64,000 bases of DNA from Phycisphaerae bacterium (GCA_022072085.1 JAJVII010000009.1:1-64000), one strand, 5' to 3'. Positions 6,145-28,261 are shown, numbered from the stretch's first letter. Made by a program: numbers and translations. Notes: generated by a model not told the origin, from the letters alone.

Positions 6145-6251
6145 CTGTGCGTGGTTCGCCAAGAGAACTTGAAGCCCCAGCCGAGCCTACCGCCACCCGC
6201 CGCCCCATCGCTGCCGTCGCAGGGCAGTGAGAGCGACCATCCACGCCGCCG

Positions 6252-6281
6252 ACGCCGGCTTGCCAAGGCCGGCGTTCTGTT
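6252..6281 (+). terminator. Hairpin terminator downstream of the HNH gene
   Basis: ACGCCGGC (6252-6259) and GCCGGCGT (6268-6275) form an 8-bp stem around TTGCCAAG, followed by TCTGTT. The position, between the HNH gene and the next operon, fits a transcription stop. Confidence 0.45.
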
Positions 6282-6325
6282 GGACAATGCCCGCGAAACG
6301 TCAGGTTGAAGAAGACGGTGTCGCC

Positions 6326-6943
6326 ATGCTCAACGCACTCAGAGGTTCGCTCCAAGCGCTCGCGGACGAATGCCTGAGTCGGGGATTCGCGGCACTGCTT
6401 GAGGCGGATGTCGCCGGCTGGCTCTTTCACCTTCTCCTGGCTCGTCCGGCGATTACTGCCGGCAACCTGCACCTCCAGTCACGAGTGGTGGGCGTTAAGG
6501 GCTTTGTCGACGTCGTCCACGGGCGAATTGACTGCGATAGTCGGGCGAGGCCGGCGGTGCGTCCCGACCTGGCGCTGGAGTTGAAGCTGTTTCCTCGGAT
6601 CGGGTTCACGGTCCAGCAGCATCGTGTCCATTTCGAGCACGTCCTGCACGACGACCTGCCGAAGCTTGGGCAGGTCAACTCGACTGCCTGCGTTTGTGCG
6701 GAAGTGCTGGTCGATGGGTATGGTTACTTGGAGGGGAAGTATAACGGGATGAATCGTCTGGCTGTAGTTGGCAGCACTCGCGACACGGTGTGCCCAAGTT
6801 CCCACGTTCTCGTCGTCCAACTATCCGGGGACACATGGGGCGTGCGGCATGTTACCGCCCCCACCGGCGATGCGCGATCTGATGTGCTCGCTACGACCAC
6901 ACCTGTCATACCCATGACGGATAATCCCAGAGGTCTGGCCTGA
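6326..6943 (+). CDS. PD-(D/E)XK-like nuclease candidate, first gene of the PLD/helicase operon
   Basis: The protein has 205 residues. Its centre contains RPDLALELKLFP, which fits the PD...ExK signature of restriction-endonuclease-fold nucleases, followed by QQHRVHFEHVLHDDL. The start at the ATG at 6326 was chosen because protein-like sequence begins there (MLNALRGSLQALADEC); the ribosome site is weak. The next gene begins 70 bases downstream in the same direction. Role in the operon is unproven. The short motif could also be coincidental, but an Asp and an ExK placed this way in a defence island is suggestive. Confidence 0.6.
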   Translation: MLNALRGSLQALADECLSRGFAALLEADVAGWLFHLLLARPAITAGNLHLQSRVVGVKGFVDVVHGRIDCDSRARPAVRPDLALELKLFPRIGFTVQQHRVHFEHVLHDDLPKLGQVNSTACVCAEVLVDGYGYLEGKYNGMNRLAVVGSTRDTVCPSSHVLVVQLSGDTWGVRHVTAPTGDARSDVLATTTPVIPMTDNPRGLA

Positions 6944-7013
6944 GGCACCGCGATGGGCGTTGCCGAGACTCTTGCCCCGCGTTCCGCAGCCGGGGAAGAA
7001 TGCGGAGACGGAG

Positions 7014-13400: not shown

Positions 13401-13904
13401 CAGTTCGTGGCCGTGGCCAAGGGCGGCGGGGGTGACAAGTTCATCCAGGCTCGCGACCGCATATTCAATGGCTTCAACACACCGCTGCTGCCGGAAATCT
13501 TGATCTGCACCACGGTCGGCCAGGAGGGTATCGACCTCCACCGCCATTGTCGGCACGTGATCCATTACGATCTGGCGTGGAACCCGGCCACGTTGGAGCA
13601 GCGCACCGGCCGCGCTGATCGCATCGGCAGCAAGACGTTCCGCGAGCGATCCCTTGCTGCGGACGGCGCCAAGACCTTCCTGGAAATCGGGGTTCCGTTC
13701 CTAGCCGGCACGTACGACGAGCGCATGTACGAGGAACTGCGTCTGCGTGCCCAGACGTTTGAAGTGTTGACAGGCGGGGAATTCGCGGCCGAGCACGCCG
13801 AGGGCGACGACGACGAAGGTCGCGAGGGTCGGCTTTCGATCACACCCTTGCCGCAGGAAATGCTCCGCCAACTGCGGGTCGACCTACAGGTGTGGCGAGT
13901 ATAG
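10464..13904 (+). CDS. SNF2/HepA-like superfamily II helicase
   Basis: The protein has about 1146 residues. Walker A is DEVGMGKTF, motif II is VDEAHNWKNG, and the C-terminal helicase lobe contains WNPATLEQRTGRADRIGS, which is typical of SNF2/HepA translocases. A long insert between lobes (about residues 640-900) carries no known motif. The GTG start at 10464, with GGAG nine bases upstream and overlapping the PLD stop codon, is preferred over the longer open frame. The size and partner resemble the DISARM helicase DrmD, but DrmA, DrmB and a linked methylase are absent, so it is not a canonical DISARM. Confidence 0.88.
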   Translation: MINVSQQFDLGLDTSRIKDPNDARRQTRTTEEVLQRFFHPRPGKRFELQVLADEVGMGKTFVALATAYSILAHMREGRPESDLDGCYQKVLILTPANSSLFNKWNKEVAEFVRRCVLPRYRDEATSWFTAKKVERLDELVAAVRGDTKRRVLLTNMAILRGAGGKLRHYDLKRRFMLGVLFRFWGNRLGLDERERLLKGAPADWPRDPRWLTKVEYWEQELLPFSEDELLAAVEAFNRRYGDVDSLLDVCREIARPWTWNREGKFDAKGIDNRLIRIYRWSAYQLIRQAFPLLIVDEAHNWKNGPSAGTNGFTEFAEDLAPHVRRALLLTATPFQLRPEEMLEILKVSDHIMPCPTQQESEARRKRLEDFRERTIRPVLKNSEQASKAFTKAWTRLPRKFKTEDLLDAWMMPQVEDARGKLLELADEPGVIGAGDPRFEKAITTALAGMDPDLRPVIREALGLYAFNTDLSREMGSLVIRHRRGTDHRLFRVGCESALPAARVLARPDAHLLHYAPGLDVRGDGELPHYILMRCVSEMKGGKGRSSLGSALTGCYSTLLHSAEGRDVQKRLKDSAVGRVYLDLLMNMVSEDQDADHPKLTRVVQSVLERWRAGEKVLIFCFRVNTADRLRTIIDQHIRTELNDRRRACLGGGDALRTLRARFTGRERDLIGLGLDRVLWSAMWAARARREDAGLFDPRRLRLTGDDLRGLARLSLSCGIDLRGERIDRVFLHRATECVLARRLLRDGPSVGFNHRLLEEAAQEAWVTHPYGLQSEDHVEAEGETPTQGDGAADRAGFDERGVHFVYDPRSGRSGDADALAADLEATRQRARRQGQVALLDAYAEAPSLWLGTRPSEQWAAPDERRAVSIGALHDHLWGLTEQGDGHNWTTRLMVFQALRRALLRESVLLRLLPDRAEREESGWGELLVDAFHREMLGQRESMADRVVVFVEDIRAASGDIREPGSARYAIYDATQLRDQQFVAVAKGGGGDKFIQARDRIFNGFNTPLLPEILICTTVGQEGIDLHRHCRHVIHYDLAWNPATLEQRTGRADRIGSKTFRERSLAADGAKTFLEIGVPFLAGTYDERMYEELRLRAQTFEVLTGGEFAAEHAEGDDDEGREGRLSITPLPQEMLRQLRVDLQVWRV

Positions 13905-13979: not shown

Positions 13980-14396
13980 TCAATTCCGGCGAAGAAACGC
14001 CCGTATCCGATCGGCTACGTGGGGCATTTGCCTCGCCGTGGCCTGGCATTCCCAGATCACCAGCACGCGCCAACCCAGCCGGCGCAACGACAACATGTTC
14101 CGACGGTCGCGCCGGCGGTTCTCATCCAGTTTGCCACGCCAGAACGCAACTCGGCTCTTCGGAATCCGGTCGCCAAGGTCGCACTTGTGCCTGTGCCAGA
14201 AGCAGCCATGGACAAAGATGACCTTCCGTTGTTTGGGGAAGACAAGGTCGGGGCAGCCTGGAAGGCGGCGCACGTGGAGGCGATACCGGAAACCAAGAGA
14301 CCAAACGAGCCGCCGAACGGCGTACTCCGGCTGCGTGTCCTTCGACTTGATCAGAGACATTCGTCGGCTGCGCTCTTCACGACTGAGACTATCCAC
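13980..14396 (-). CDS. vsr: Very-short-patch repair endonuclease Vsr
   Basis: The 138-residue protein matches Vsr throughout: RRMSLIKSKDTQPE near the N-terminus, LPGCPDLVF, VHGCFWHRH and the C-terminal VLVIWEC. Vsr nicks 5' to the T in T:G mismatches made by deamination of 5-methylcytosine. The GTG start lies 1 base after the methylase stop codon, so the two are translationally coupled. The pairing protects the host against mutations caused by its own methylase. It is the last gene of the MORC-type restriction operon, and its 3' end faces the 3' end of the helicase operon. Confidence 0.93.
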   Translation of the reverse strand: MDSLSREERSRRMSLIKSKDTQPEYAVRRLVWSLGFRYRLHVRRLPGCPDLVFPKQRKVIFVHGCFWHRHKCDLGDRIPKSRVAFWRGKLDENRRRDRRNMLSLRRLGWRVLVIWECQATARQMPHVADRIRAFLRRN

Positions 14397-14397
14397 T

Positions 14398-15612
14398 TCA
14401 ACGCTTCCTCGTGGGATTGCAGGCGGCCTTGACGCGCATGGCCTCGACCAAGCGACCGACCACGATTTCGGCCAGTTCCACCGGAACGGCATTTCCTAGC
14501 TGTCGCATCGTTCCCGTCCATGTGCCCTCGAAGACCCAATCATCCGGGAACGTCTGAAGGCGAGCGCATTCCCTGACCGAAAAGTAACGCACGGAACTAT
14601 CGTCCAGCCTGACCATGTTCTCCCCGCCGGGAACGCCATGATCTCCCGCCTTCAGGGTCTTGGCCGGCCAATCCAAGACGGATCCCGTGTGCCCAGCATA
14701 AGCGCGGGCACCCGGGTTCAGGAAATGATTATCGATGGTTCTGGACGTCTGCCCGATGGCAATCCGCGGCAGACTGCTGATCGCATCCCGAACGGTCCGC
14801 CAAGCTCTTGGCAGCATCTTCCGGTCAAGGACGCGGAGTTTCTCGATTCGTCGCTTCAGTCTCGATGGCATCCTTGGCCGCAGCGATTTCGCTATGCCGT
14901 GTCGATCCCAGTACTCCCCAGAGACCCATTGGTCATAAAGAAGGCCATCCTCCGAATGGGTCGATGGGGGGTAGCTGAACTCCATGCCCAGGTCTGACCG
15001 CACGCCAACGATTAGAACCCGCTCTCGCCGTTGTGGCACACCATAGTCGGCCGAATCAAGGGCGGACGGCGACAGAATCTTGTAATGCAGGTCATCGTAG
15101 GTGTCCCCGGTATACAACCTCTCAAGTCGCGGAAGATGGTCCAACCACTCCTCGTCGCCCCGCGGGCCAACGAGCGGAAATCGCAACCGGTGCAGGATGT
15201 AGTTGTAGTACTTTAGGAAACTGCCGCGCAACAACCCCTTGACGTTCTCGAACACGAAGGCCTTCGGCATTATCTCGCGGACTGCGCGAATAGCCTCGGG
15301 GAACAAGTTCCTTTCGTCCTCATGCCCCGCGTGATTGCCGCCAAGAGAAAAGGGCTGGCATGGCGGCCCGCCACACACCACAGCGACCTTGCCTGCATGC
15401 TGCGCAAGATCATAGTCCTCAACCGAACCCTCCACTATCTCCCAGTCGCGTACGAACTTGACGCCATCCTGCTTGTTGCGGCGCAAGGTATCGCAGGCTC
15501 CGGCATCGCGCTCGATCGCCGCAACGTGGGCTAGGCCAGCCCTGGCGGCCCCAAGGGCTAGACCGCCCGCGCCGGCAAATAGCTCAATTGACGTGACCCC
15601 GTTGTCCGCCAT
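14398..15612 (-). CDS. DNA (cytosine-5-)-methyltransferase
   Basis: The 404-residue enzyme shows the C5-methylase motifs in order: motif I ELFAGAGGLALG (residues 10-21), motif IV GGPPCQPFS with the catalytic Cys, motif VI ENVKG, motif VIII QRRERV and the C-terminal motifs IX-X ending in RQLGNAVPV. The variable region between VIII and IX would set the target sequence, which cannot be read from the protein. It follows the 177-residue unknown gene by 17 bases and precedes Vsr. It would mark self DNA for the ATPase and helicase-nuclease encoded upstream. Confidence 0.95.
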   Translation of the reverse strand: MADNGVTSIELFAGAGGLALGAARAGLAHVAAIERDAGACDTLRRNKQDGVKFVRDWEIVEGSVEDYDLAQHAGKVAVVCGGPPCQPFSLGGNHAGHEDERNLFPEAIRAVREIMPKAFVFENVKGLLRGSFLKYYNYILHRLRFPLVGPRGDEEWLDHLPRLERLYTGDTYDDLHYKILSPSALDSADYGVPQRRERVLIVGVRSDLGMEFSYPPSTHSEDGLLYDQWVSGEYWDRHGIAKSLRPRMPSRLKRRIEKLRVLDRKMLPRAWRTVRDAISSLPRIAIGQTSRTIDNHFLNPGARAYAGHTGSVLDWPAKTLKAGDHGVPGGENMVRLDDSSVRYFSVRECARLQTFPDDWVFEGTWTGTMRQLGNAVPVELAEIVVGRLVEAMRVKAACNPTRKR

Positions 15613-15629
15613 GATTCCTCCACCTGCGG

Positions 15630-16163
15630 TTACGCCCCGTTGAGCCAGATCACCTTCTCGATCTTGAGCTTCTTGGCGGCATCCTCGACCATCTCGCGGA
15701 AGGGCCCCTCCTGCATGCGGCCGCCGGCATACATCAGAACCAGGCCAAAGGGCCTTGCCTTCGCCGCCAAGTGGGATCGCTCATGAACCGCCATGATCAG
15801 GTTCTTCCAGTTCGCGGCCAAGCCCCAGCAGAGGATTCTGCCGTCATCAAGTCGCAGGCCGTGTGGCTTTGTGTAGTTCTCCGCCGTCCCCGCCTCCAGT
15901 GGAATTCCCAAGGCCTTGCGCACCCGATTCGGATCCTCGAGGCGATCCAGCACATAGGGCTTCATGATCGTGTCTTTTATGTAGAGCCGGACATTCTGGT
16001 CGGGAATGTATCGGGAGATCACGCCGCCGATATCCCGGTCCCTGCTCCAGTTTTCGTAGTACTGCGTCTTCTGGCGGTCTGGCAACGTGGCCCACTTCAG
16101 GCCATCCGCCAGTGTCCAAAGCTTCTCACGCAGGCCGTCCAACACCGTGTCTGGTAGTTTCAT
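15630..16163 (-). CDS. Unknown 177-residue protein of the MORC restriction operon
   Basis: The gene overlaps the helicase-nuclease gene by ATGA and lies 17 bases before the methylase. The product has no membrane segment or recognised motif. It is rich in aromatic and charged residues (WATLPDRQKTQYYENWSRD near residue 24) and ends EKVIWLNGA. Position suggests a dedicated subunit of the restriction complex, for example a specificity or adaptor protein. This is inference from gene order alone. Confidence 0.65.
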   Translation of the reverse strand: MKLPDTVLDGLREKLWTLADGLKWATLPDRQKTQYYENWSRDRDIGGVISRYIPDQNVRLYIKDTIMKPYVLDRLEDPNRVRKALGIPLEAGTAENYTKPHGLRLDDGRILCWGLAANWKNLIMAVHERSHLAAKARPFGLVLMYAGGRMQEGPFREMVEDAAKKLKIEKVIWLNGA

Positions 16164-17845
16164 TGCACGCTTCCTGGTGGGGGAGCATCCGGATAGTCAA
16201 TCTCCGGAAGCTGAAGCTCCGCGTCGTCCTCCCGAAGAACCAACGACGACTGATCAAGTATCCATTCCTTGAGGAAGCTCCCCGCCGATTGATCGCCAAA
16301 CGACACCAATCGCCCGCCGAGGCCGACGCGCTCCACATCGTCGCCCCTGATGGCCTTATCCAACTCCAAGACCTCCGCGACGCGCCTCAAGTCGGTGACG
16401 AAATCCAGAACCACGACCTTGTCCTTGTCGCGACTGAATCGCAGCCCGCGTCCGAGTTGTTGTACGAAGATTCGGCGGCTATGCGTGACCCGCATGAAGA
16501 TAATCAGGTCCACATCCGGAACATCGACGCCTTCATTGAACAGGTCGACCGTGACGACGATGTCGAGGCGGCCCGAGCGAAACTGCGACATCAACTTGTC
16601 CCGAGTCCGTGGCGGAGTCTCAAATAGAATCACTTCGGCCCGGAATCCATATTGACGAAGCGTTCCGGCGAATGATTTCGCGTGGGCCCCCGATGGGCTA
16701 TAGACGATGGCGCAATGGCGTTTCTCGCCATCGAAGACCTGGCGGACGAGGCGAGCCGCCATGTCATCCCGCGTCGGGATGATCAGCTTGCGGTTGAGCT
16801 GGGAAATCGAGTACTTGTTCCGTGATCGCTGCTGGACGAATTCCCAGTCAATGTTGTCGGCCAGGAGCCGGTAGTCCACCTCGGCCAGGAAACCCTTGGC
16901 TAGGCCCTCGGCAACTCCCAGCCGGACGAGCGCCGGTCCAAAAATGCGATCAATATCGTAGGCGTCTCCGCGCCAAGGCGTGGCCGTGACTCCCGCCAGC
17001 ATCCTAGGCCGCAGGGCGGCGATGGCCTGCAAGAAGGTTTCGGCGCCAGCATGATGGGCCTCATCAACCACGACAAGCCCGAACTGCGGAAGATGCTCTA
17101 GGCGCTGCGTGACACTCTGAATGGTGGCGAAGGTGATGCCATCCCAATACGTGGGCGTCTCGCCCTCGGCAAGTCGGTGAGTGTGGACCCAGCGGGGCAG
17201 CTGGAACCAGAACGCCTGCTGCAACTGGTTGACCAGCGTGACGGTGTGCGCGAGCACGAGAATACGCCCATGCTCCACCCGGTTGTCCCTGAGCAAATCG
17301 GCAACGGTCTCGGCCATGACAACCGTCTTGCCTAGGCCCGTCGCCATCACGATCTGGCCGCGCCCAGTATCGAGCAAGGCCTCCCGCAAACGCGTCGACG
17401 CGTCCTCTTGATAGTCCCTCAGCGTTCGGCGGGCGGGCGCGTACTCCGGGGTCGCCTGCATCCAATTGATAAGAACCGCCGGAACAGCCAGATCGATCTT
17501 CAACCCCAGTCTCTCGTATCGGCTCTTTTCCCTGAGTAGCCCATCCGATGGGGGGCGAGAGCACGCGATGACCAGCTTTTCGGCGTCGTAGAACTCGGCG
17601 GCATTGACAATCTCCTCCACGGCGGAGCTTGGCGGCGGAGAAGCTGTTGTGTGCTTGCACTGAACGACCCAGATCTCGCCTCCACGGGCGGCGAGGATGT
17701 CGGCACCGTGATCACCGGTCCCGGCAACAAGGCGGACGTCCTGGAATCCGTTGGCCAGGAGAAGCCGCGCAACATCCCGCTCGAATGCCTGCCAGGGGCC
17801 ATTCAGCAGTCGGTCGCGTCCCAGGAAGCCGCTATCCTCGATCAC
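16160..17845 (-). CDS. Mrr-like nuclease fused to a DEAD/DEAH helicase
   Basis: The 561-residue protein has an N-terminal Mrr/REase-fold domain (GDHGADILA, then WVVQCKH, residues about 44-65) that supplies the Asp and QxK catalytic residues of this nuclease class. It is followed by a superfamily II helicase: Walker A MATGLGKT, motif II VVDEAHH, motif III TATPWRG and motif VI QQLGRGLR. It overlaps the ATPase gene upstream and the small gene downstream by ATGA at both ends. Known relatives act as the cutting and translocating subunit of restriction systems. Confidence 0.92.
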   Translation of the reverse strand: MIEDSGFLGRDRLLNGPWQAFERDVARLLLANGFQDVRLVAGTGDHGADILAARGGEIWVVQCKHTTASPPPSSAVEEIVNAAEFYDAEKLVIACSRPPSDGLLREKSRYERLGLKIDLAVPAVLINWMQATPEYAPARRTLRDYQEDASTRLREALLDTGRGQIVMATGLGKTVVMAETVADLLRDNRVEHGRILVLAHTVTLVNQLQQAFWFQLPRWVHTHRLAEGETPTYWDGITFATIQSVTQRLEHLPQFGLVVVDEAHHAGAETFLQAIAALRPRMLAGVTATPWRGDAYDIDRIFGPALVRLGVAEGLAKGFLAEVDYRLLADNIDWEFVQQRSRNKYSISQLNRKLIIPTRDDMAARLVRQVFDGEKRHCAIVYSPSGAHAKSFAGTLRQYGFRAEVILFETPPRTRDKLMSQFRSGRLDIVVTVDLFNEGVDVPDVDLIIFMRVTHSRRIFVQQLGRGLRFSRDKDKVVVLDFVTDLRRVAEVLELDKAIRGDDVERVGLGGRLVSFGDQSAGSFLKEWILDQSSLVLREDDAELQLPEIDYPDAPPPGSVQ

Positions 17846-20181
17846 TCCGCATCTCCCGATCCCGAGGCGGGCGCGAGCATGTCCACGGCGAGCGCGGCAC
17901 GCATTACACGTTCCCGGCTGGCATCGTTAAGCTCGTCCGATGACCGCGCGGCCAGCCAAGTGGCGTCGCTGAGCAGCGCCGAGTAATCACCCACCAATCT
18001 CCTCCACGCCATCTCCGTAGCGCCCTGGCTGCCGAAGTCTAGCGATGCATATCGCTCGTCCCAGTACTTGCCATCAAAGAACAACTCCGGATGACTCTGG
18101 AAGAACTCTAGTAATGTCGCCCACGAGGCGTATTCAAGAAACCGACCCTGATCGATTGCCGCCTGCGGGTCGGAGACCGCCTTGGCGGCCATGCGACGCT
18201 GAATCTCCTCCTGCTCACTAGGCGACAAGGCATTGAACAGTGTGCGCCCATCCCCAGGCGAGAGATTGGCCTTCAGGCTCTTTGCCACCCGCGTCAAGGC
18301 CATTCCCGCCTCACTGGACAGCGTGACGGGATCAAGTTCGTTGACGCCACCGTACTTGCCCCGCAAGCTCGCGAGGATTGCCGCGAAGGAATGGCCGCTG
18401 CCGCTATCACGTTCAAAGTCCATCGCCGACCATGCCAACTGCGCCAAGAGGCCATCCAGAGGCGTCATGGTCATCGACCGGAATACTGGATGCCTGGCGT
18501 TCACCAGAAACTCGTAGTAACCTTGAGTTGAACGGCCGAACCCCCAAGGGCTATCCGCAGTGCCCAATCCTACGTCGGAGGATTCCACATCGAAGGCCCG
18601 CACATCCCATCGTTGGTTTGTCAGGTCGTCCCTGTACTCCTGTGTAAGCGATGCAATTGGCTGGCGCGTGGGAGGTTGCGGCGCTGATGGCGAAGGAGTC
18701 GGTCCTCCGGGCCCTTCGGGCGATGGCGTTTCCGGCGCTGCCGGGGACAGCGGCCCCAGGCCGCCTCCATCCGTATCCGGCGGGGTGAGAAGAACGTTGT
18801 CTGCTTCCTGCACGAGCGCCCACCAGGGCTCATCCGTTTGCCACTCCGCCTCGCCTGCGTAGAACCGCTTCGCCATTTGCGAGGCGCGATCGTTATCGGG
18901 AACAATGAGCAGTTTCGCGTAGCACCCCGCGACCTTTGGCTTCGGGCTTGACCTCCTGAAGCACTGAAAGAGCTTCGACAGCGGGGACGTATTCACCGGA
19001 AGGCCCGCCTGCTGCGCCTTGTCCGGCCTGAGCGGCCCCTCGCCACGCACCACCTTCACCATGTCTTCCCACGCGGGGTCCTCTCGCTCAAATCGGTCCT
19101 TTGTGTAGCTGACTCGGCAGTGGTCGAGATGAATCTCGCCGACGATTCTTCCTCGGTTCCGGGGGTCGTCGATTGGATACTCAAGTTCCTGGGATTCGCC
19201 GTTGTCCCAGTAGAACAAGTCCTTGTTGCCGAGTTCGAGTTTTCGGCCATTGCGGATGAAGTCGATGCCATAGCCTTCCTGGCTCAAATACCGCTGGATG
19301 CCAAGCCAACCGTGAATGTGTCTGTCTCGCATCACGAGCGCGCCGACTGCCCCGCAGATCGGGCAAGCGTCGCTCATCTGCGTCAGCCACTGCCAACACC
19401 GTTGACAGAACGGTCGGCTGGGCAGATGCGTATCGACGGGTTGAATCGCGCTCAGGATTCCGTGGCGGGAAGACTCGACCGTTCTACCGGCACCCCAAGC
19501 GCAGTGATTGCGAGGAGCCACGATGCGACCGTTTAGATAAAGCCGGAACGTCATCGGTTGACCATCCTGGCGGAGCATCGCCGAATACACTTGGCCCAGT
19601 ACCTGGGTCAACTGCGTTCGGTTCGACGCCCTGGCGAACCATTGCGACTGCTCTGGCTTCAACCTCAGGATGGAGACCTCGACGCCGCTCTCGGTGGAAT
19701 CCGGTTTCGGCCGGGTGAGTTCAGGTGTCCGGAAACTGCCCTGCCGAATCAGTTTCTCGAAATCTATTTCCAGCCCGCGCCATTGCCCGTCGCCCTTCTG
19801 CGTTGCCCAGACTTGCGTGACCAGCCCGAGCCGAGCAGTGGCGATATTGAATCCCATGCCGAACAGGCCCAGGTGCCGGATGGGATCGTTGCTGGTCCAG
19901 CCCGCACGGACCGCCTTCTCCAATGATTCGCGGCTCATGCCCGGGCCATTGTCGCGGACCGAGATCCGTGATTGCTCTATGTCCGCGGTGGGCACCGTAA
20001 CGTGAACTTCCGGCTCGGCGCAGGGGTTGCCGCCTCGCTGGCAGCGGAGGAATCCATCGATGGCATTGTCAACAAGCTCCGCTAGGCACCGCCACTGACG
20101 CAGGTTGATTTCGCCGAGCATCGGAAGGATTCTTGGGTCGGGCTGGAGGTCGAAGTCAGGCCCCATGTTCTGTTCCGCCAT
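17842..20181 (-). CDS. MORC/Hsp90-type GHKL ATPase of a restriction system
   Basis: The 779-residue protein opens with a GHKL ATPase fold: N-box LAELVDNAIDGF, G1 motif RDNGPGMS and G2 motif LFGMGFNIATARLG, all within the first 140 residues. The rest holds a second ATPase-associated lobe, a CPIC/CQRC pair that could bind zinc (near 255-280), and a long C-terminal region after a Pro-rich linker. Prokaryotic MORC-like ATPases linked to C5-methylases and helicase-nucleases were described by comparative genomics as ancestral to eukaryotic MORC. The ATG at 20181 has AGGAG eight bases upstream and is first in a five-gene operon. Confidence 0.88.
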   Translation of the reverse strand: MAEQNMGPDFDLQPDPRILPMLGEINLRQWRCLAELVDNAIDGFLRCQRGGNPCAEPEVHVTVPTADIEQSRISVRDNGPGMSRESLEKAVRAGWTSNDPIRHLGLFGMGFNIATARLGLVTQVWATQKGDGQWRGLEIDFEKLIRQGSFRTPELTRPKPDSTESGVEVSILRLKPEQSQWFARASNRTQLTQVLGQVYSAMLRQDGQPMTFRLYLNGRIVAPRNHCAWGAGRTVESSRHGILSAIQPVDTHLPSRPFCQRCWQWLTQMSDACPICGAVGALVMRDRHIHGWLGIQRYLSQEGYGIDFIRNGRKLELGNKDLFYWDNGESQELEYPIDDPRNRGRIVGEIHLDHCRVSYTKDRFEREDPAWEDMVKVVRGEGPLRPDKAQQAGLPVNTSPLSKLFQCFRRSSPKPKVAGCYAKLLIVPDNDRASQMAKRFYAGEAEWQTDEPWWALVQEADNVLLTPPDTDGGGLGPLSPAAPETPSPEGPGGPTPSPSAPQPPTRQPIASLTQEYRDDLTNQRWDVRAFDVESSDVGLGTADSPWGFGRSTQGYYEFLVNARHPVFRSMTMTPLDGLLAQLAWSAMDFERDSGSGHSFAAILASLRGKYGGVNELDPVTLSSEAGMALTRVAKSLKANLSPGDGRTLFNALSPSEQEEIQRRMAAKAVSDPQAAIDQGRFLEYASWATLLEFFQSHPELFFDGKYWDERYASLDFGSQGATEMAWRRLVGDYSALLSDATWLAARSSDELNDASRERVMRAALAVDMLAPASGSGDAE

Positions 20182-20429
20182 CGGTCCCACTCCTGATCTT
20201 GAGGTCGCGATTTCGGCCGTGGTCTCGGCCGCCGGACTCAGCGCTTCCCGCCGCCATGCCGGGCGAGAACGCGGCCTTTCAAGTGGCCACAGGCGCATAC
20301 CACCCGCCAGCGGGGAAGCTGGCGGTGATTATGCGCTACTCGGCTTTCACGATCAACGGGCGACATTTGCACGCCGCGAGGACGGTCGGGCGGCAGCCTG
20401 TATTCGGCCCGGCCCGGGCCACCTATTCG

Positions 20430-21227
20430 CTAGGATCGCAATGCCGGCAGTTCCACGTCCTCATCGCGGTAGCCCTGCCACGCACGCAAAAGGTCATGCG
20501 TCCAGTAGGTGTTCGGCTGGCCGTGCTTCCGTGGGCTCGCCAGCGGCGGCATGGTCACTGTCTTGTGCCGAGCAGCGGCCAACAAAGCTCGCTTTCGATA
20601 CATGCGGTAATCCTTCTTCTTCGCCTCGCAAAACCGGGCCATGAAGGCATCTACCGTGATCGGCTCGTTCGGCACGTCCGGCCATTGCGCTGCCTGGGGC
20701 GAGGCGGCTGGCGAGCCGGGCCTGTCGATGGGGGCGTCATCAGCCATCCTGCATCCCACCGAGCCTCGCCCCGGCTGCTTTGGCCGTTCAGACGATCCGG
20801 TCGACTGCCGCCGGGCCTCCAGCGCGTTCATCGCCTCGGTCACGGCGACCTCAACAGTTCTGGTCTGGTCCCAGAGGTCCTTGGCCAGGAAGAAGGTCAG
20901 GCCGTCGTTCTGAAAGTCTCCCGCGAAATTCCACGCCTCGACGGTATGGCTGGTCATGATGATGATCGCAACCTTGCCCACGCCCTTGATCTTGAGGATC
21001 TGCTGGAACAGGCTCACGCCGTTCTGGATACGGGGGTCCCCGCCGCGACTGGAAGCCGGAATCCGCAGGTCCAGCAGCACATAATCAAAGTCCTTGGTCG
21101 CCAGCAGCTTGCGGGCGTCCTCGTTATTGCCGGCCACTTCGAACTTGTGCTGGAGCGAGTGCTCGAGGATTTCGCCGACGTACTCCAGGACGTCCTTCTT
21201 GTCATCCACCACCAGAGCTCGCGGCAT
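20430..21227 (-). CDS. Response regulator, REC domain with novel C-terminus
   Basis: The 265-residue protein begins MPRALVVDDKKDV. The acidic pair is at 8-9, the phospho-acceptor Asp is in YVLLDLRIP near residue 49, and the conserved Lys is in FFLAKD. After a Pro-rich linker the C-terminal 80 residues (DAFMARFCEAKKKDYRMYRK onward) match no output domain I know. They include a basic segment and LLRAWQGYRDED, which could be a small winged-helix or protein-binding module. The start overlaps the kinase gene, and GGAGG sits 5 bases before the ATG at 21227. It is the last gene of the ATPase-kinase-regulator set. Confidence 0.85.
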   Translation of the reverse strand: MPRALVVDDKKDVLEYVGEILEHSLQHKFEVAGNNEDARKLLATKDFDYVLLDLRIPASSRGGDPRIQNGVSLFQQILKIKGVGKVAIIIMTSHTVEAWNFAGDFQNDGLTFFLAKDLWDQTRTVEVAVTEAMNALEARRQSTGSSERPKQPGRGSVGCRMADDAPIDRPGSPAASPQAAQWPDVPNEPITVDAFMARFCEAKKKDYRMYRKRALLAAARHKTVTMPPLASPRKHGQPNTYWTHDLLRAWQGYRDEDVELPALRS

Positions 21228-22374
21228 GGCCTCCTCCACTGATTGTTCGAGGCAGGACGATGGTCATGGTCGTGCCCTCTCCGGGGGCACTGGCCGCGAC
21301 CAGTTCACCGTCATGAATCTCCACGTAGTTGCGGGCGATCACCAATCCGAAGCCCGACCCGCCGTCCTTGGTCGTCCGCCCGGGCGTGAACAGTTCGTTG
21401 AGTTCGGCAGGCTCCAAGCCCGGGCCGTTGTCCTCGATCACTATCGCCACTTCGCCGGCGTTGATGGCCTTTCCGGTCAGGACCACATGCGGCTGAGAAG
21501 CCATCGCCGCCGCGTCGAAAGCGTTGGACAGGACGTTGAAGATTGCCCGCTCCAGTTGCGGCTCTGTGACGTAGACGACCAGCCCCTGCTGCACGTCCAC
21601 GTCGAGGTCGACCCGCGACCAACCGGGTTTCGATGTCGCCAGGTCGGCAATCCGGGCGGCTGCCGAGTGGACCAGCCCATCCAGTGATCTGACGGACGGG
21701 CGGGTGGGCGTGGCCCGCGACCGGGCATACTCCAGCATCTGCTGGACGAGGTAGCTGTAGCGCCCCAGGATGCCGCCGACCTTCTCCAGCGACGCGAACG
21801 CTGTAGCCGGATCATACTCGCCATTGAGGATCGCCTGGCGCAAGGCGGCGACCCGGCCCTGAAGAACACTCAGATCGTTCTTCATCTCGTGGGCCAGATT
21901 GCTCGCCAGGGCCATGTGGTAGGTCTCGCCTATCCGCATCGCCGTCCTGGCGACCTCATCGCCGTGGCGTTCCCTCAGGTGCTGGTATAGCTCCAGCACC
22001 AGGTCGATCCCCTGAAGCTTCTGCCTGAGTGCCGATTTCACCTTGCGGCGGCGGTTTCGGCTGACCTCCGCCGCCCGGCTTACGAAGGCGTTGGGGTCCT
22101 GGCGGAGCTTAGCCGCCAGCGGCTCGAAGTCGCCTTGGCGCACGTAGTGCAAACCGTCGGCGATTGCCTTCCGCACTTCCCACTTCGGGTCGTCGGCCAG
22201 CAGGTTCAGCAGCGGGACCATCACCGCCTCGCGGTCAACGACCCCGCCGGCCCGGAAGACGGCCATCAACTGCCTGGCACAGGCGAGCCGGTCCAACCAG
22301 GGCAGTGCCTCCCGGTCGGCGGTCAACAGACGCAGCGATTCCGGCAGGTTGAGGATTTCAGCTTCGGTATCCAT
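21202..22374 (-). CDS. Soluble histidine kinase with HEAT-like repeats
   Basis: The 390-residue kinase has no transmembrane segment. Residues about 25-115 form helical HEAT-like repeats (VPLLNLLADDPKWEVRKAIADG and the following FEPLAAKLRQDPNAFV). The phospho-acceptor box NLAHEMKND has its His near 162, and the HATPase domain has N-box NVLSNAFDAA, G1 EDNGPGL and G2 GSGFGLVIA. Its ATG shares two bases with the ATPase stop codon (TGATG), and its end overlaps the regulator start. A cytoplasmic sensor coupled to an SMC-like ATPase would read an internal signal such as DNA damage or ATPase state. Confidence 0.88.
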   Translation of the reverse strand: MDTEAEILNLPESLRLLTADREALPWLDRLACARQLMAVFRAGGVVDREAVMVPLLNLLADDPKWEVRKAIADGLHYVRQGDFEPLAAKLRQDPNAFVSRAAEVSRNRRRKVKSALRQKLQGIDLVLELYQHLRERHGDEVARTAMRIGETYHMALASNLAHEMKNDLSVLQGRVAALRQAILNGEYDPATAFASLEKVGGILGRYSYLVQQMLEYARSRATPTRPSVRSLDGLVHSAAARIADLATSKPGWSRVDLDVDVQQGLVVYVTEPQLERAIFNVLSNAFDAAAMASQPHVVLTGKAINAGEVAIVIEDNGPGLEPAELNELFTPGRTTKDGGSGFGLVIARNYVEIHDGELVAASAPGEGTTMTIVLPRTISGGGHAASSGGG

Positions 22375-24257
22375 CAGATCCGGTATCGCTCCTTGCGCTT
22401 CATGAAGGCTTCCTGCCCGCCCTCCAGCAGCCCGATGATCTCTTCGCGGCATTCGTCCACCGTGCCTTCCCTGGCCTTGACCGCCCTCGCGCCATTGGAC
22501 CGCAGAACAAAGACCCGCTCGGCATCGCCCAGCACCGGGATGTTGGGGTTGTGCGTCACGAACAGCATCTGGCGGCGGCCCTTGGCCTTGCGGATGCAGT
22601 CAACCACCGTGTCGTAGATGAACCCGTTGTCCAGGTTGTCCTCGGGCTGGTCGATCAGCAGCGGGTTGTCGCTGTCCAGCAGCAGGATCGGCAGGATCGT
22701 GGTGCATTTCTGGCCGGTGGACAGGGACGTCGAATCCTTGTACTCCTCGCCGTCGAGCAGCTCGATCCGCGGCTTGTCGTCCAGTTCGATGGTCTCCAGG
22801 CGGAACATCATCTTCGGGCCGGCGAACGCCGCCACCACGTTGCTGGCCTGGTTGGGGTTGAGCGTCGCCCGCTCGATCATCGACTTGGTATCGCCGGCGG
22901 CGACCATCGCGGCCAGTTCACCGGGCGAGAGGTTGTCGGCGACCTTCTGGGCCACGATGTTCCGGTTGACGCCCGCGCCGGCCAGGGCCTCCAGGAGCAG
23001 TTCCCGGTACCGCGACGGGTCGCCGAACTGGGCAACGCTGACCCGTATCCGGGGTGCCAGCCGGTCGGTGATACGGGCGGCAACCTTGCGGCGGAAGGCG
23101 AACCGCTCATCCCGCAGCGACGAGAGCTGACCGAGCAGCTCAGCGCGCTCCTTCTGGAGACGCTGGAGGGACTCGGTGTGCTCATCCCGGACCCGCTTCT
23201 TCTCCAGCAACTGGTTCCGCAATGTCTCCAGCCGGATCCGTTCGGCCTCCTGCCCCTTGGCCTGATCGTGGCGGGCCAGTTGCTCGCGGAAGGCCAGTTC
23301 CTGCTCGGCCTGGCTGGTCGCCAGTTCCCCGCCGATCTCCGCCAACCGGTCCTGGGCCCGGACGATGCGGTTGCGGGCATCCTCGATCAGCCGATCAACA
23401 TCGCCGGAGCAGGCGGCCAGTTCGTCGCGGATCTGCTGGAGGAGATGTCCGTTCGGCCCGGCGAGCATCTCGCTGCTGAAGGCCGCCGACACCCGCTTGG
23501 CGATCCCGCCGACGAGGCCATCCAAGGAGCCGGCGAAGGCGTTCAGTGCCTCGTCGGCGGCGGTCGCCGCCCGGCGCTCGCGGTCGCGCATTGAGTTGAG
23601 TTTGTGGGCCTGGTTCAGGGAGGCCGAGCCGTCGCCGTTCCTGGCCGCCAACGCCTTGAGCTTGTCCTGGATGCCCGGCAGGGTGCTCAGTTCATCGCCC
23701 ACGCTGTCCAGCGCCTTGCGCACATCGATGATCTTGCCCCCGTTGGCCGAGAGCCTGGCCTCCACCTTCCGAATCGCCGCGTTCACCCGCTGGACATCGT
23801 CCGGGACGAAGTTGTCGATCAGGGACAACTGCGAGCCGGGGTCGTCGGCGATGCCTTCAATGTCGTTCTGGCTGTAGATGTCGGCGCGGAACACGCCGCC
23901 GTTGGCCAGGGTCACCTCGCTGGGGCTGCCGGAGGCGTCCATCACGATGGCCGCGCCCCCCGCCGTACGGTCGACCACGTATTCGATGCCGTCCCTGGTC
24001 TCGATCCGCAGGCGAATCCGGCCCGCGCCCAGGTTATCGGTGACCAGGGAGTCGAGCCGCTTCTGCACGCCCGCGGCCTGTTTGCCGGCGGACGAGTCCA
24101 GTGCATGCCGGACGTATTCCAGGGCGGTCGTCTTGCCGGCGCCCCGGGGGCCGATCAGGCAGTTGAGGCCCTCGGCCAAGTCGATCTCCAGGCCGTCCAG
24201 GAAGCCCCCGACGACCGACAGCGATTTCAGCTTGTGGCACTTCTTCCCATTGTTCAC
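22374..24257 (-). CDS. SMC/RecF-like coiled-coil ABC ATPase
   Basis: The 627-residue protein has an N-terminal ATPase half with Walker A GPRGAGKTT (residues 36-44) and a central region with coiled-coil character (about 180-370, heptads rich in Glu, Arg and Leu). The C-terminal half has the signature SLSTGQKC, Walker B PLLIDQPEDNLDN and switch His FVTHN. This is the SMC/RecN/RecF plan, seen in many defence ATPases. The frame stays open upstream to 24761, but the GTG at 24257, with AGGAG seven bases upstream, is clearly the start. It leads directly into the kinase gene. Confidence 0.88.
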   Translation of the reverse strand: MNNGKKCHKLKSLSVVGGFLDGLEIDLAEGLNCLIGPRGAGKTTALEYVRHALDSSAGKQAAGVQKRLDSLVTDNLGAGRIRLRIETRDGIEYVVDRTAGGAAIVMDASGSPSEVTLANGGVFRADIYSQNDIEGIADDPGSQLSLIDNFVPDDVQRVNAAIRKVEARLSANGGKIIDVRKALDSVGDELSTLPGIQDKLKALAARNGDGSASLNQAHKLNSMRDRERRAATAADEALNAFAGSLDGLVGGIAKRVSAAFSSEMLAGPNGHLLQQIRDELAACSGDVDRLIEDARNRIVRAQDRLAEIGGELATSQAEQELAFREQLARHDQAKGQEAERIRLETLRNQLLEKKRVRDEHTESLQRLQKERAELLGQLSSLRDERFAFRRKVAARITDRLAPRIRVSVAQFGDPSRYRELLLEALAGAGVNRNIVAQKVADNLSPGELAAMVAAGDTKSMIERATLNPNQASNVVAAFAGPKMMFRLETIELDDKPRIELLDGEEYKDSTSLSTGQKCTTILPILLLDSDNPLLIDQPEDNLDNGFIYDTVVDCIRKAKGRRQMLFVTHNPNIPVLGDAERVFVLRSNGARAVKAREGTVDECREEIIGLLEGGQEAFMKRKERYRI

Positions 24258-24306
24258 TGATCTTCTCCTGAACAGATTGAAACGGGTTGTTCCTTGACGA
24301 CGAAAT

Positions 24307-24504
24307 CTATTCCTGCGGCTCCTGGCCGTCCGGCCTGGCAACCAACCGCACCACATCAAGCAGCCGCTCCCGGAGCGGCGGCGGCAGGCTGCGGTAGAGT
24401 TCCAGCAGCTCCCGCTCGCCATCATCCAGCCCAACCGACCGGACCGTTTGTCGGCCGGCGCGCTCCACGTGCATGTTGGCACGACGCTTTCGCATGGTCC
24501 CCAC
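24307..24504 (-). CDS. Small hypothetical protein
   Basis: The 65-residue protein is basic at the N-terminus (MRKRRANMHVERAGRQ) and helical and acidic afterwards (DDGERELLELYRSLPPPLRE). It fits exactly between the DUF6569-like gene (42 bases upstream) and the ATPase (49 bases downstream) on the same strand. Size and helix pattern (LLELYRSLPPPLRERLLDVV) recall small helix-turn-helix proteins. It may be a regulator or adaptor of the operon. Confidence 0.5.
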   Translation of the reverse strand: MGTMRKRRANMHVERAGRQTVRSVGLDDGERELLELYRSLPPPLRERLLDVVRLVARPDGQEPQE

Positions 24505-24546
24505 TCCATGTTGCCGTGCCTCCGTGCACGAGGGATTCGAGCACGC

Positions 24547-25584
24547 TCAATACACGATCTGGTCGTCTGGCGGGTTCCGCCGACTCCGCCGGCGCGACGG
24601 CGGGGCGATGCCCGGCCCGTCGGCACGGTCGCGGTCAGTCCGGTCGTTCGGGAACGCGCACAGGTGAACGCACACGTCCTCGGCGACGAGGGCCTGACCC
24701 ACGACATCCTCGGCCTCAAAGCGCCAGTCCTGGCCGACGCCCACCGTCGGGCACGGCACACAGTCGATTTCGCCGAGGTGCTCGAGCAGCGCCGAGGCGC
24801 CCTTGGCGCTGAACTGGATTGACTTCTCCCCTGCCTCCCGGCGAACCATCGCGTCCAGGGCGTAACCCGTCACCAAGCGGGGCCAGATGCGCTCCAGCGT
24901 CGCCGGGCGGTCGAACAGGTCCAAGGCGGCGAACCGGCCGTTGATGGCGACGACGACGCCCCGCGATCCGGCCCGGTAGCTCAACGCCTCGACGTAGCTG
25001 CCGATGGACTCCCGCCGGTGCTCCACTACGTCGTGCATGGCCATCGTGGGCGACGGCACGGCGGCTGCCTCGACGTTAGCGGCCACGGCATCCCAGACCG
25101 CCCCCTGATCGCTGCGGGCCTGGCCTTCGGTCCGCAGGTTCCGCCCCACGTCCCGGCTCTTACGTGCCCGCAACATCGCCGGTGAGTAGCTGCCGGCGGC
25201 AAACGCGGCCGACGTGTGGTGCCAGCGGCCCTGCTCGACGCACGACACCGGAATCTTCGTTTTGCTCCTGGCCGGCAGCAGGACCGTGGTGTTCAGGATG
25301 CGGTTCTGCTTGGCGCCGACCAGCTCCTCGCCGTCCAACAGCAGGATCAACCGCTCGCCGGCGTTGGACGCCAGCAACTCAGGCACGCTGCCGCCCTCGC
25401 TGACTTCGGTCACGGTGAGCTGGCCGGCGGCGATGGCGTCGGCGGCAAGGACGTATTCGAGACGCCCGGGCCCCTCCCCCCCGAGGGGCACGAGCGTGAG
25501 GTTGCGATGGCCGAACGGGTTGCCGGCCGAAATGGTCTCGATAAACGGCTTCAACGTCCGTGTTGGTTGTCTGGTCTGTGTCAC
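24547..25584 (-). CDS. DUF6569-like (ARPP-1-type) protein
   Basis: The product has about 345 residues. It opens with a hydrophobic block (LTLVPLGG), then LLLLDGEELVGAKQNRILN, a strongly conserved signature of the ARPP-1/DUF6569 family, and PVSCVEQGRWHH. The family is associated with conflict and stress operons, but its biochemical activity is unknown. The GTG at 25584 has AAGGAG six bases upstream and is a better start than the ATG at 25590, which abuts the same site. It begins about 10 bases after the HIRAN gene ends. Confidence 0.75.
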   Translation of the reverse strand: MTQTRQPTRTLKPFIETISAGNPFGHRNLTLVPLGGEGPGRLEYVLAADAIAAGQLTVTEVSEGGSVPELLASNAGERLILLLDGEELVGAKQNRILNTTVLLPARSKTKIPVSCVEQGRWHHTSAAFAAGSYSPAMLRARKSRDVGRNLRTEGQARSDQGAVWDAVAANVEAAAVPSPTMAMHDVVEHRRESIGSYVEALSYRAGSRGVVVAINGRFAALDLFDRPATLERIWPRLVTGYALDAMVRREAGEKSIQFSAKGASALLEHLGEIDCVPCPTVGVGQDWRFEAEDVVGQALVAEDVCVHLCAFPNDRTDRDRADGPGIAPPSRRRSRRNPPDDQIVY

Positions 25585-25594
25585 GGGCATCTCC

Positions 25595-26011
25595 TTATGC
25601 GGTCGGTTCGGCCGGCGTCGCCGGCCCTGTTGCCTCAATGCGAACCTGCACGCGCACCGCCTCCCACGGCGGCGCGTTGGCATCGATTCGGGTGATCAGG
25701 CATCGCGCGAGCACGTCCTGCTGGAGCAGCCTGGAGACCGCCTCGTTGTGCGTCCGGGGCAGATACCCCAGGCGGCTCCCGCAATGCTCGATGCGGACCG
25801 CCCACGGGTCGTGCGGGTTTTCAGGCTCTGCGATCAGCTTCACCTCGTCGCCGACCTGCAAATAGGCCATGATGTCCGGGCCGTCGTGGTAGCGAAACCC
25901 GGCGATCTGGCACTCAGCCAGGACGCAGGAACCACGCCCGTGCTCCTCGGCGAGCCCTTTGGCCAGCATCTGGCCGAGGGCCTCTTTCTGTTGGTGTCGT
26001 GCTGGGTTCAT
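25595..26011 (-). CDS. HIRAN-domain protein
   Basis: The 138-residue protein is almost entirely a HIRAN domain: AECQIAGFRYHDG, LQVGDEVKLIAEPENPHDPWAVRI and GSRLGYLPRTHNEAVSRLL. HIRAN domains in HLTF/Rad5 bind single-stranded DNA 3' ends at stalled forks, and stand-alone bacterial versions sit in DNA-stress and defence operons. GGAG lies 5 bases before the ATG at 26011. A palindromic operator-like site (26070-26091) lies directly upstream, so this gene may begin its own transcript within the cluster. Confidence 0.88.
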   Translation of the reverse strand: MNPARHQQKEALGQMLAKGLAEEHGRGSCVLAECQIAGFRYHDGPDIMAYLQVGDEVKLIAEPENPHDPWAVRIEHCGSRLGYLPRTHNEAVSRLLQQDVLARCLITRIDANAPPWEAVRVQVRIEATGPATPAEPTA

Positions 26012-26069
26012 GTTCTCTCCGTCACCGCCCCAAGACAGCGGCCTTCTGAAGACAAGTATCCGACAGGGG

Positions 26070-26091
26070 TGCGACAGGTGTGGTCGCACCC
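26070..26091 (-). promoter_or_regulatory. Palindromic operator, copy 2 (upstream of the HIRAN gene)
   Basis: The core tgcgacaggtgtggtcgca is an inverted repeat, TGCGAC-N7-GTCGCA, followed by CCC. An identical 22-base sequence occurs at 27187-27208. Each copy lies in an intergenic gap upstream of a minus-strand gene of the same cluster. The WYL repressor encoded at the head of the cluster is the natural candidate to bind it. Confidence 0.7.
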
Positions 26092-26095
26092 GTCG

Positions 26096-27106
26096 CTATT
26101 TCAGCAATTCGTTCTGCTCCCACCGGTGGTCGGTCTTGAAGCTCGAAGCCGAGACGTACAGCGGCTGGCCGGGTCGCAGGCCCCACAGGTCGAAAAGAAT
26201 CCACACGGCATCGTCAGCCGCCTCCTGCTCCTGGCCATAGTCGTAGCGCTTGCCGACCGGATCGAACTCGACGATCTGGACCACGTTCGACACGTCGGCG
26301 TCAGGCTTTTCCGCCTCGCGATAAAAGCCCGGCCGTTCCTGGACCAGCCGCTCGGCCTCCCGCGGCAGGATGTTCGTGTTGGGGATATCTACGGCGAACC
26401 AGTCTTCGTGGAAGCAGAGCTGGATCATCCGCCGCAGGGGCTGCTGCTTGCCGAATGTTCCCTGCTTCCGCCGGGCCTTCCTGCCGGAGGCCTGGTCGGA
26501 AAACACGATGAAGCAGTGCGACCTGGCCTCGTTGTTGGCCCGGTCCTTCATCCGGCAAAGGTAATCGGCGATCAGGGCGGTTACTCGTTCGCGTGTGGCA
26601 GGATCATCGGCCGGGTCTGGCTCCGCGTCCGGGTCGTCCGCGGGCTCTTCTCTGGCCGGGGCGTCTGCTTGCTCGATGGCCTTGCGGGGACTCAGCTTAC
26701 CGAAGGCCACCGACATCAACGCCGGCAGGTAGTGATCCATGATCGAGAATCCGCAGAACGCCAGCTCACGCACCATCGCCCGGGACAGCCGGTCCTTCTT
26801 CACCGCGATGCTGTTCTTAAAGCGGACCTCGCCGTCGCGAAAGTCCAGCTCGAAATTGCCCAGCGACAGGCCGTAGTTGGCCAGCGTCAGGAACTCGGCC
26901 ACAGCCAGGCGGCGGTTGTTCGGCACGTTGAACTGGCAGATCGAGTAGCTCAGGAACAGCGTGTCCTTCTCGTTCCAGGTTGCCATCCAGACCCAGCGGC
27001 CGGTCTCGCCACTGACCAGCACCCGCAGCCGGTGCTCGTCGAGCTGCTCCCAGTGCCACTCCATTTCGCGCAGGAAACTCTGCACCGCGTCAGCAATCGT
27101 CGGCAT
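26096..27106 (-). CDS. YbjN-like (type III chaperone-fold) protein
   Basis: The 336-residue protein has an N-terminal domain resembling the YbjN/type III secretion chaperone-like fold: a helix (IADAVQSFLREMEWHWEQ), strands with GRWVWMATWNEKDTLFLSYS, then NVPNNRRLAVAEFLTLANYGLSLGN. This is followed by an acidic Pro/Asp linker (about 155-180) and a second unknown domain ending WEQNELLK. GAGGAGG precedes the ATG at 27106. It is first behind the operator at 27187-27208. YbjN-like domains in defence operons are thought to hold partner proteins; function here is unproven. Confidence 0.7.
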   Translation of the reverse strand: MPTIADAVQSFLREMEWHWEQLDEHRLRVLVSGETGRWVWMATWNEKDTLFLSYSICQFNVPNNRRLAVAEFLTLANYGLSLGNFELDFRDGEVRFKNSIAVKKDRLSRAMVRELAFCGFSIMDHYLPALMSVAFGKLSPRKAIEQADAPAREEPADDPDAEPDPADDPATRERVTALIADYLCRMKDRANNEARSHCFIVFSDQASGRKARRKQGTFGKQQPLRRMIQLCFHEDWFAVDIPNTNILPREAERLVQERPGFYREAEKPDADVSNVVQIVEFDPVGKRYDYGQEQEAADDAVWILFDLWGLRPGQPLYVSASSFKTDHRWEQNELLK

Positions 27107-27186
27107 GGTGTCCTCCTCGGCGGGGGTGTTCACGGGCGGCGATGGCCGCCTCTATCTACCCGCCAAGAACAACACTACAGGAGGGC

Positions 27187-27208
27187 TGCGACAGGTGTGG
27201 TCGCACCC
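27187..27208 (-). promoter_or_regulatory. Palindromic operator, copy 1 (upstream of the YbjN-like gene)
   Basis: It is identical over 22 bases to 26070-26091, with the same TGCGAC-N7-GTCGCA inverted repeat. It lies 80 bases before the start of the YbjN-like gene and just after the stop of the WYL repressor gene. Exact conservation of an intergenic palindrome in two places, with unrelated flanks, points to a protein-binding site rather than chance. Confidence 0.7.
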
Positions 27209-27244
27209 TTGGCGATCTCCATTTGGATCAGCGCAGTGGGTTGT

Positions 27245-28261
27245 TCAGTCGGCGAGCTTGGCGGGTGTATGGGGGCAGTTGATACCGTAGGCGCCGCACG
27301 TGGCCTTCAGTTCCGACTGGATCGCCGCGGCCAGGGACTTCGGGGATATGATGGTCGCCTGGCCGCCGAAACCGAGAATCCACCGGCGGAACTCGGTCGT
27401 ATCCGACAGCTCGAACTCGGCCACGACGCCGTCCTTGGTGTCCTTGACGATCTTCTGGCTGGTGTGCCAGCGCTGCTCGCGGAGACTCGTGGCCGCCCAG
27501 CCAGTGAACCGGGCACGGATCGTCTGGAACTTGCTGGAGGTGAAGATGCCGAAACTGCCGTGGGTGTAGGCGCGGAGCGAGAAGTTGGACGGCCGCTCGA
27601 AGACCTGGGCGGTCATCTGGACGCCGACGATCCGCGAAACCTTCAGCGTGCGAACCTCACCGTACTCCACCAGCAGCCCGATGCAGTAGAGGTTCGTGCC
27701 CAGGAAGACCAGGCCGTAAGGATGGAACGTGGCGTCGAAGTCCTTGCCCTTGCTCAGCGAGTGGTAGCGGACCTTGAGCACGCGGCCCTCGGCCATCGCC
27801 TTGTTGATGATGGCGATTTCCTTGTCCTTGCCGGAGTAGTCCTGGCCGGGCAGGTTTTTGACCAGCAGCGTGCGGTCGTCGAAGAAGTGGCCCAGGGCGC
27901 TCTTGGGCAGCAGGGCCTTGATCTTCTCCAGCGCGGTGTTCAACCCGTCGCCGAACTGCGTGCCGGCCAGAGGCGCCAGGAGCTGCTGGCTGAGGTAAAG
28001 GCTGAGCATCTCGGTCATCGAAAGCGTCAGGCCGTCGTGGTCAAGGGCCTTGGCTTCGAGCCGCCAGAACCGCTTGCCGTACTCGCCGGTCTCGTGGAAA
28101 ACAGGAAAACCGATCTGCTGGAGCACGTTCAGATCGCGCTGCACCGTGCGTTTGCAGCACTCAAGCCGCTTGGCCAGATCGTCCTCCGTCTGGCCGAAGT
28201 GAAACGCCTGGAGCGTCTTGAGCAGGTTCCACTGACGGAATAACGGTTCGGCACGTGCCAT
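27245..28261 (-). CDS. WYL-domain transcriptional regulator
   Basis: The 338-residue protein has an N-terminal winged helix (DDLAKRLECCKRTVQRDLNVL, residues about 28-48) and a WYL domain (VRYHSLSKGKDFDATFHPYG, then NLYCIGLL, about 180-215), followed by a C-terminal WCX-like extension. WYL regulators bind nucleic-acid-like ligands and repress phage-defence operons such as BREX (BrxR) and CBASS (CapW). The gene heads the cluster. The twin palindromes at 26070-26091 and 27187-27208 are likely its operators. Confidence 0.92.
   Translation of the reverse strand: MARAEPLFRQWNLLKTLQAFHFGQTEDDLAKRLECCKRTVQRDLNVLQQIGFPVFHETGEYGKRFWRLEAKALDHDGLTLSMTEMLSLYLSQQLLAPLAGTQFGDGLNTALEKIKALLPKSALGHFFDDRTLLVKNLPGQDYSGKDKEIAIINKAMAEGRVLKVRYHSLSKGKDFDATFHPYGLVFLGTNLYCIGLLVEYGEVRTLKVSRIVGVQMTAQVFERPSNFSLRAYTHGSFGIFTSSKFQTIRARFTGWAATSLREQRWHTSQKIVKDTKDGVVAEFELSDTTEFRRWILGFGGQATIISPKSLAAAIQSELKATCGAYGINCPHTPAKLAD

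Follow-up and report, generated by a model that had tools for sequence, protein, structure and literature searches.

Eight tightly spaced genes on one strand raise the question of whether they form a single system and, if not, which of them belong together and to what end. The window, a 64,000-nucleotide stretch from Phycisphaerae bacterium (GCA_022072085.1 JAJVII010000009.1:1-64000), carried eight minus-strand open reading frames at 20430-28261, all present with the domains that a sequence-only reading had named (full Pfam scan, E <= 0.01). In gene order, these encoded a WYL/WCX regulator (27245..28261; WYL 5.6e-14, plus WCX), a YbjN protein (26096..27133; YbjN 1.2e-8), a HIRAN protein (25595..26089; HIRAN 1.7e-15), ARPP-1 (24547..25590; PF20208, 1.9e-92), previously labelled DUF6569-like, a 65-aa product from the interval between ARPP-1 and the ATPase (24307..24504) that showed no conservation, an SMC/Rad50-like, TrlF-related ATPase (22374..24257; AAA_23/AAA_21), a presumably cytosolic, HEAT-containing histidine kinase (21202..22374; HATPase_c 1.7e-21) and a response regulator (20430..21227; Response_reg 1e-10) with an intact receiver and a short C-terminal domain peculiar to this copy. 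The last three genes, hereafter the triad, overlap because their likely starts fall at GTG 24257 (AGGAG directly upstream), at ATG 22374, overlapping the ATPase stop by 1 nt, and at ATG 21227, within the kinase gene.

A search with the kinase in 61 relatives recovered another eleven loci, full-length or nearly so, from six genomes, all in the order ATPase, kinase, regulator and all lacking WYL, YbjN, HIRAN and ARPP-1 genes. Scanning GTDB with an ATPase alignment yielded 80 loci, mostly from Planctomycetota and Verrucomicrobiota but also from Lentisphaerota, Myxococcota and others. In 76 of the 80 the kinase was the very next gene after the ATPase; three of the other four reached a contig end, and the fourth (L086) was a deletion remnant. 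Kinase retention in 76/77 relatives with downstream sequence bore out the expectation that the triad proteins are produced together. L086 was rejected as an example of an ATPase without a kinase, the deletion having fused the end of the ATPase to the winged helices of the regulator; this degraded triad (9001-11170), with kinase and receiver deleted, has PglZ, Lhr-type helicase and GmrSD genes in its vicinity. A regulator was also present in 72 of the 76 loci with a kinase, starting -25 to +30 bp from the kinase stop in 69 and with an exact 4-bp overlap in 44 of the 72 pairs. The triad (20430-24257) is a functional unit, an invariant operon that moves intact, and it is spread across phyla, plasmids, prophages and defence islands. 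Its distribution is patchy and multi-copy: about 10 of 294 planctomycete genomes carried it, one of them with four copies, and the triad of a Klebsiella plasmid had no match in complete E. coli genomes. No model in PADLOC, NCBIfam or Pfam spanned the whole triad.

The WYL and ARPP-1 genes are a strict two-gene module of their own. Close ARPP-1 homologues (45-66%) in eight other genomes were adjoined by a WYL gene in 8/8, and YbjN, HIRAN and the triad were absent beside the pair in all eight (WYL-ARPP-1 loci outside the window are L139-L146 and L172-L179). At L172 the pair lies about 3 kb from type I restriction-modification (R-M) genes. YbjN and HIRAN recurred with neither the triad nor WYL-ARPP-1, falling outside both recurring modules, and no relative had either gene adjoining a triad; WYL/ARPP-1 was likewise absent beside triads in nearly all relatives. 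This neighbourhood comparison ruled out the eight-gene cassette as a unit. As the triad and WYL-ARPP-1 are distributed separately, the cassette is an assembly of modules, of which at least two, the triad and WYL+ARPP-1, are separable. The sequence-only reading had proposed one WYL-controlled system and had itself named separation of the triad from the other genes as evidence against an ordered eight-gene set, and in nearly all relatives the triad does occur apart from the other five. Its intuition of an SMC-like ATPase joined to a phosphorelay survives, in an arrangement far commoner than the window alone implied.

All ATPase motifs were intact, comprising Walker A (GPRGAGKTT), the signature (LSTGQK), Walker B (LLIDQPED) and the H-loop (THN). 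The AF2 model (pLDDT 84) matched the heads of MukB, SMC, Rad50, Wadjet JetC, RecN and Lamassu LmuB in Foldseek and, together with these motifs and a coiled coil, points to an ABC ATPase of SMC/Rad50/RecN type, in agreement with its first description as SMC-like. Its nearest named relative was TrlF (2e-89; TrlF_fam_ATP, NCBIfam NF045780), although it scored 301.6 bits against that model, below the 350-bit cut-off, and covered model positions 296-944 only. TrlF homologues were 812-922 aa long with the ATPase as the last ~620; the N-terminal region ahead of it, which we take to be a PHP domain, was absent from the window protein, which is the ATPase alone. Where TrlF/Ppl proteins have a PHP domain, the triad instead has a kinase and regulator following the ATPase. 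A tree resolved three ATPase clades (chromosomal triads, plasmid triads and TrlF), and the triad ATPase is sister to the TrlF/Ppl ATPases. TrlF ATPases are themselves an accessory of BREX and R-M loci. Full-length TrlF genes were seen adjoining brxL (L184), between pglX and pglZ (L186) and beside a DUF262 gene (L187).

The kinase had an intact H-box (HEMKND), N-box and G-boxes, with HisKA (2e-4) and HEAT_2 (4e-4) matches that both fell under the curated cut-offs, and the regulator retained receiver residues D13, D57, T96 and K120. With the phospho-His, ATP-binding boxes, phospho-Asp, Thr and Lys all in place, the pair is predicted to form a two-component phosphorelay. The output of the regulator was more variable. 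When 70 relatives and the window copy were compared, 59/71 regulators had a common C-terminal region, which by its sequence reads as two successive winged helices, the first of them OmpR-like, and the remainder had other short domains. The usual winged helices were absent from the window regulator, which, like L061, had a small tail unlike the others. Across 294 genomes this tail was without a relative, and its fold was not predicted with confidence, AF2 being confident for the receiver only; among the Foldseek matches listed, coverage was of the receiver, and PADLOC gave no match past it. The earlier impression of an unfamiliar output domain therefore holds for the window copy and fails for most relatives, which read as winged helices. 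In a second, plasmid-borne branch of triads the regulator was a receiver fused to an APH-like phosphotransferase domain (Klebsiella, Rhodococcus, Shinella, Caballeronia, Leclercia, Pantoea and Phaeobacter; loci L021, L022, L023, L180, L181, L182, L189). The pattern is one relay with exchangeable outputs. The receiver-APH regulator matched 47 plasmid records, 36 of them from Piscirickettsia; the one Piscirickettsia record inspected (L183) had a short kinase and no ATPase gene listed. Directly behind the triad in L093 (6282-7862), a receiver-like gene contributes its first ~35 residues to a fusion with a GmrSD restriction protein, and L097 and L106 have a short receiver-like gene at the same position.

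Defence genes were among the neighbours of triads. ResIII was found in 11/97 proteins upstream of triads, against at most 1/121 proteins in 20 control stretches (p about 0.001). Other upstream neighbours were HsdR, EcoEI_R_C, type III nuclease, BrxC/D, BrxL, DruA and six WYL genes, while GmrSD, SNF2 helicases and serine recombinases lay downstream. Individual triads sat beside type I R-M (L040, L041), type III R-M (L043, L082), Mod/Res (L058), Mod/Res with an AAA_15 ATPase (L099), BrxL (L048) and SNF2 helicases, one with NOV_C (L087, L088, L094), and in L044 an HNH gene followed 1 bp behind the regulator. Many GTDB triad loci had no recognised defence gene nearby, and many sat on short contigs. 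The ATPases of L043 (Verrucomicrobiota, type III R-M) and L048 (Planctomycetota, BREX) were sisters, and thus the triad changes both partner and phylum.

In the window, the minus strand continued past the regulator into an R-M operon (20181-13980) that the sequence-only reading did not see. It encoded a MORC-like GHKL ATPase (17842..20181; HATPase_c_3, ATG 20181 with AGGAG), an Mrr nuclease-SF2 helicase (16160..17845), a 177-aa protein with no family match (15630..16163), a C5 cytosine DNA methyltransferase (14398..15612) and a Vsr mismatch endonuclease (13980..14492), all on the minus strand. MORC, SF2 helicase, DCM and Vsr are the typical set of a MORC R-M operon (Iyer 2008, PMC2292703), and 13980-20181 holds the prokaryotic set of GHKL ATPase, SF2 helicase/nuclease, DCM and Vsr, of the MORC or paraMORC kind. 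The published MORC operons match this adjoining operon and do not contain the triad. Facing the Vsr end is a second defence-type unit, a plus-strand operon (6227-13904) with a PLD-like protein and a DrmD/DpdE-like SNF2 helicase, and an rve_3-type transposase gene (4112-5848, minus strand) lies near the left end of the island.

Between the regulator and the MORC gene we found a promoter-like TTGATC-17-CATAAT on the minus strand (20356-20328), with 0.0 expected in shuffles, overlapped by a 19-nt imperfect inverted repeat (20293-20336) whose perfect core palindrome occurred once in the genome; we regard 20293..20356 as a candidate operator. Upstream of the triads in L070, L076 and L079, a CTAAC-N6-CTAAC direct repeat with an 11-bp period, a period used by OmpR-type regulators, overlapped a TTGACA-17-TAACTT promoter. 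In two genomes (8.2 Mb) the exact repeat was limited to triad promoters and a single additional position on the L070 contig. A global regulon was ruled out by this confinement to triad contigs, and as the R-M promoters lacked exact CTAAC sites, direct R-M control is unsupported in those two genomes. In another triad group, arrays of two to five CGGTRTCA sites preceded the ATPase; the motif occurred at 4.8 per kb upstream of triads and 0.08 per kb elsewhere, but part of this enrichment is built in, since some of these sequences had also served for choosing the motif by eye. Operator-like sites are concentrated in the promoters of triads. About 230 bp before the ATPase in L064, L077, L081, L084, L073 and L055 there was also a 5' leader of strong conservation with predicted hairpins; a few of its hairpin pairs were preserved through changes on both sides, and it might be a new RNA element or an operator block. 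A different conserved leader was present in L060, L070, L076 and L079, with no Rfam match in those scanned, and no known RNA families were found in seven triad loci and the window.

Among named systems, the closest association is that of Response_reg_2/HEF_HK with R-M. These genes likewise form a soluble kinase-regulator pair; they are described as two-component-like and as linked to both R-M and paraMORC, and C5 methylase and Vsr stand out in their neighbourhoods (Bellieny-Rabelo 2021, PMC8011034). The window shares the linkage to R-M, C5 methylase and Vsr (13980-20181), by analogy only. Neither PF19191 in the kinase nor PF19192 in the regulator was found in the full Pfam scan (E <= 0.01); the triad proteins belong to different families (HATPase_c/HisKA and Response_reg), and the consulted part of the source reports no SMC-like ATPase partner for Response_reg_2/HEF_HK (PMC8011034). 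By its logic, though built from other proteins, CapK/CapS is the closest worked analogue of the triad, pairing a DNA-state-sensing kinase with a phosphorylated DNA-binding protein beside immune and R-M operons (EMBO J 2026, PMC13373217). CapK is an anti-sigma-type kinase that itself binds ssDNA and phosphorylates serine, and CapS is a STAS repressor; ssDNA activates the pair and the operon beside it is derepressed (PMC13373217). CapK/CapS has neither a His-Asp relay nor an SMC ATPase, whereas the triad lacks both the anti-sigma-type kinase and the STAS repressor and has a His kinase with an H-box and an Asp receiver. As for BrxR/CapW, a WYL gene is also near the window triad, but the triad is not part of BrxR/CapW. 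Among openly readable papers, nothing relevant linked either TrlF or an SMC-like ATPase to a two-component system, and none described a phosphorelay fed by an SMC-like ATPase, as the sequence-only reading had supposed.

We propose, with a probability of about 0.58, that the triad is a self-contained SMC-type DNA-state sensor with a local phosphorelay, through which genes of mobile elements and of defence are switched. Going by its fold, the ATPase would bind abnormal, invading or damaged DNA, and its ATP state may alter the kinase, acting in the cytosol, through the HEAT region. The kinase would then phosphorylate the regulator, which would switch its own promoter and a neighbouring operon. 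In the window that operon would be the MORC-Mrr-C5MT-Vsr R-M operon, and in proviruses perhaps the early genes that diverge from the triad; in the plasmid branch, the attached APH-like kinase domain would replace DNA binding. Such a switch fits the data better than a defence effector does. An effector role would make the triad a stand-alone antiphage system of the type of Detocs (defensive two-component system), in which the ATPase senses phage and the phosphorelay drives an effector attached to the regulator. Both are three-gene phosphorelays linked to defence, and the receiver-APH-like fusions of the plasmid branch and the patchy, multi-copy distribution speak for this idea. We nevertheless consider it improbable, given that chromosomal-branch outputs read as DNA-binding and the window regulator has no PADLOC match past its receiver. 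The triad, furthermore, has an SMC-like ATPase and lacks an ATP nucleosidase effector of PNP type on the regulator, its outputs being winged helix, APH-like or other. Nor does it have the TPR kinase and stand-alone receiver gene that presumably characterise Detocs; its kinase carries HEAT and there is one regulator gene.

Control of lysogeny and induction is a rather unlikely role for the triad, though one with evidence of its own: as a functional analogue of LexA/cI or ImmA/ImmR it would belong to prophages and integrative elements, and its adjacency to R-M genes would reflect shared islands, not R-M regulation. Among 37 IMG/VR contigs with the ATPase, the kinase was present in 33 and the regulator in 31, and many had a serine recombinase and, divergent from the triad, a block of early genes (AAA_24, DUF2800, helicase); serine recombinases also occurred in 11/80 genome loci, several ending <=10 bp from the regulator stop. 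Against this, triads in L041, L048 and L099 follow immediately after type I, type III or BREX genes and in the same direction, and the window has R-M genes and, save for helicase-domain similarity, no early-gene block. That all eight genes form one WYL-controlled DNA-stress system is very improbable. Their tight spacing in the window would suit it, as would L071, where WYL-ARPP-1 touches the triad, and L082, where the two lie <=8 kb apart, but the separate occurrence of both modules and the lack of YbjN and HIRAN at every relative's triad largely refute it.

A DNA-state sensor with a local phosphorelay thus remains our preferred reading, under which the triad probably activates or silences genes next to it when the DNA of the cell is in trouble and may serve defence genes, the mobile elements that carry them, or both. 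More tentatively, at somewhat under even odds, it may represent a new class of genetic switch, running from an SMC/Rad50-type DNA-surveillance ATPase through a cytosolic HEAT histidine kinase to a response regulator whose output can be exchanged (winged helix, small DNA-binding domain or APH-like kinase), and used by defence islands, prophages and plasmids instead of RecA/LexA- or ImmA/ImmR-type sensing. To our knowledge, there is no earlier case of an SMC-family ATPase controlling a histidine kinase. The sensing of DNA state by defence islands and mobile elements has few worked examples, namely BrxR/CapW, CapH/CapP, CapK/CapS and LexA. If our reading is true, a portable SMC-ATPase-to-phosphorelay module, a candidate that occurs with type I, type III, BREX and MORC R-M systems, proviruses and conjugative plasmids, would show a new way in which this sensing is done.
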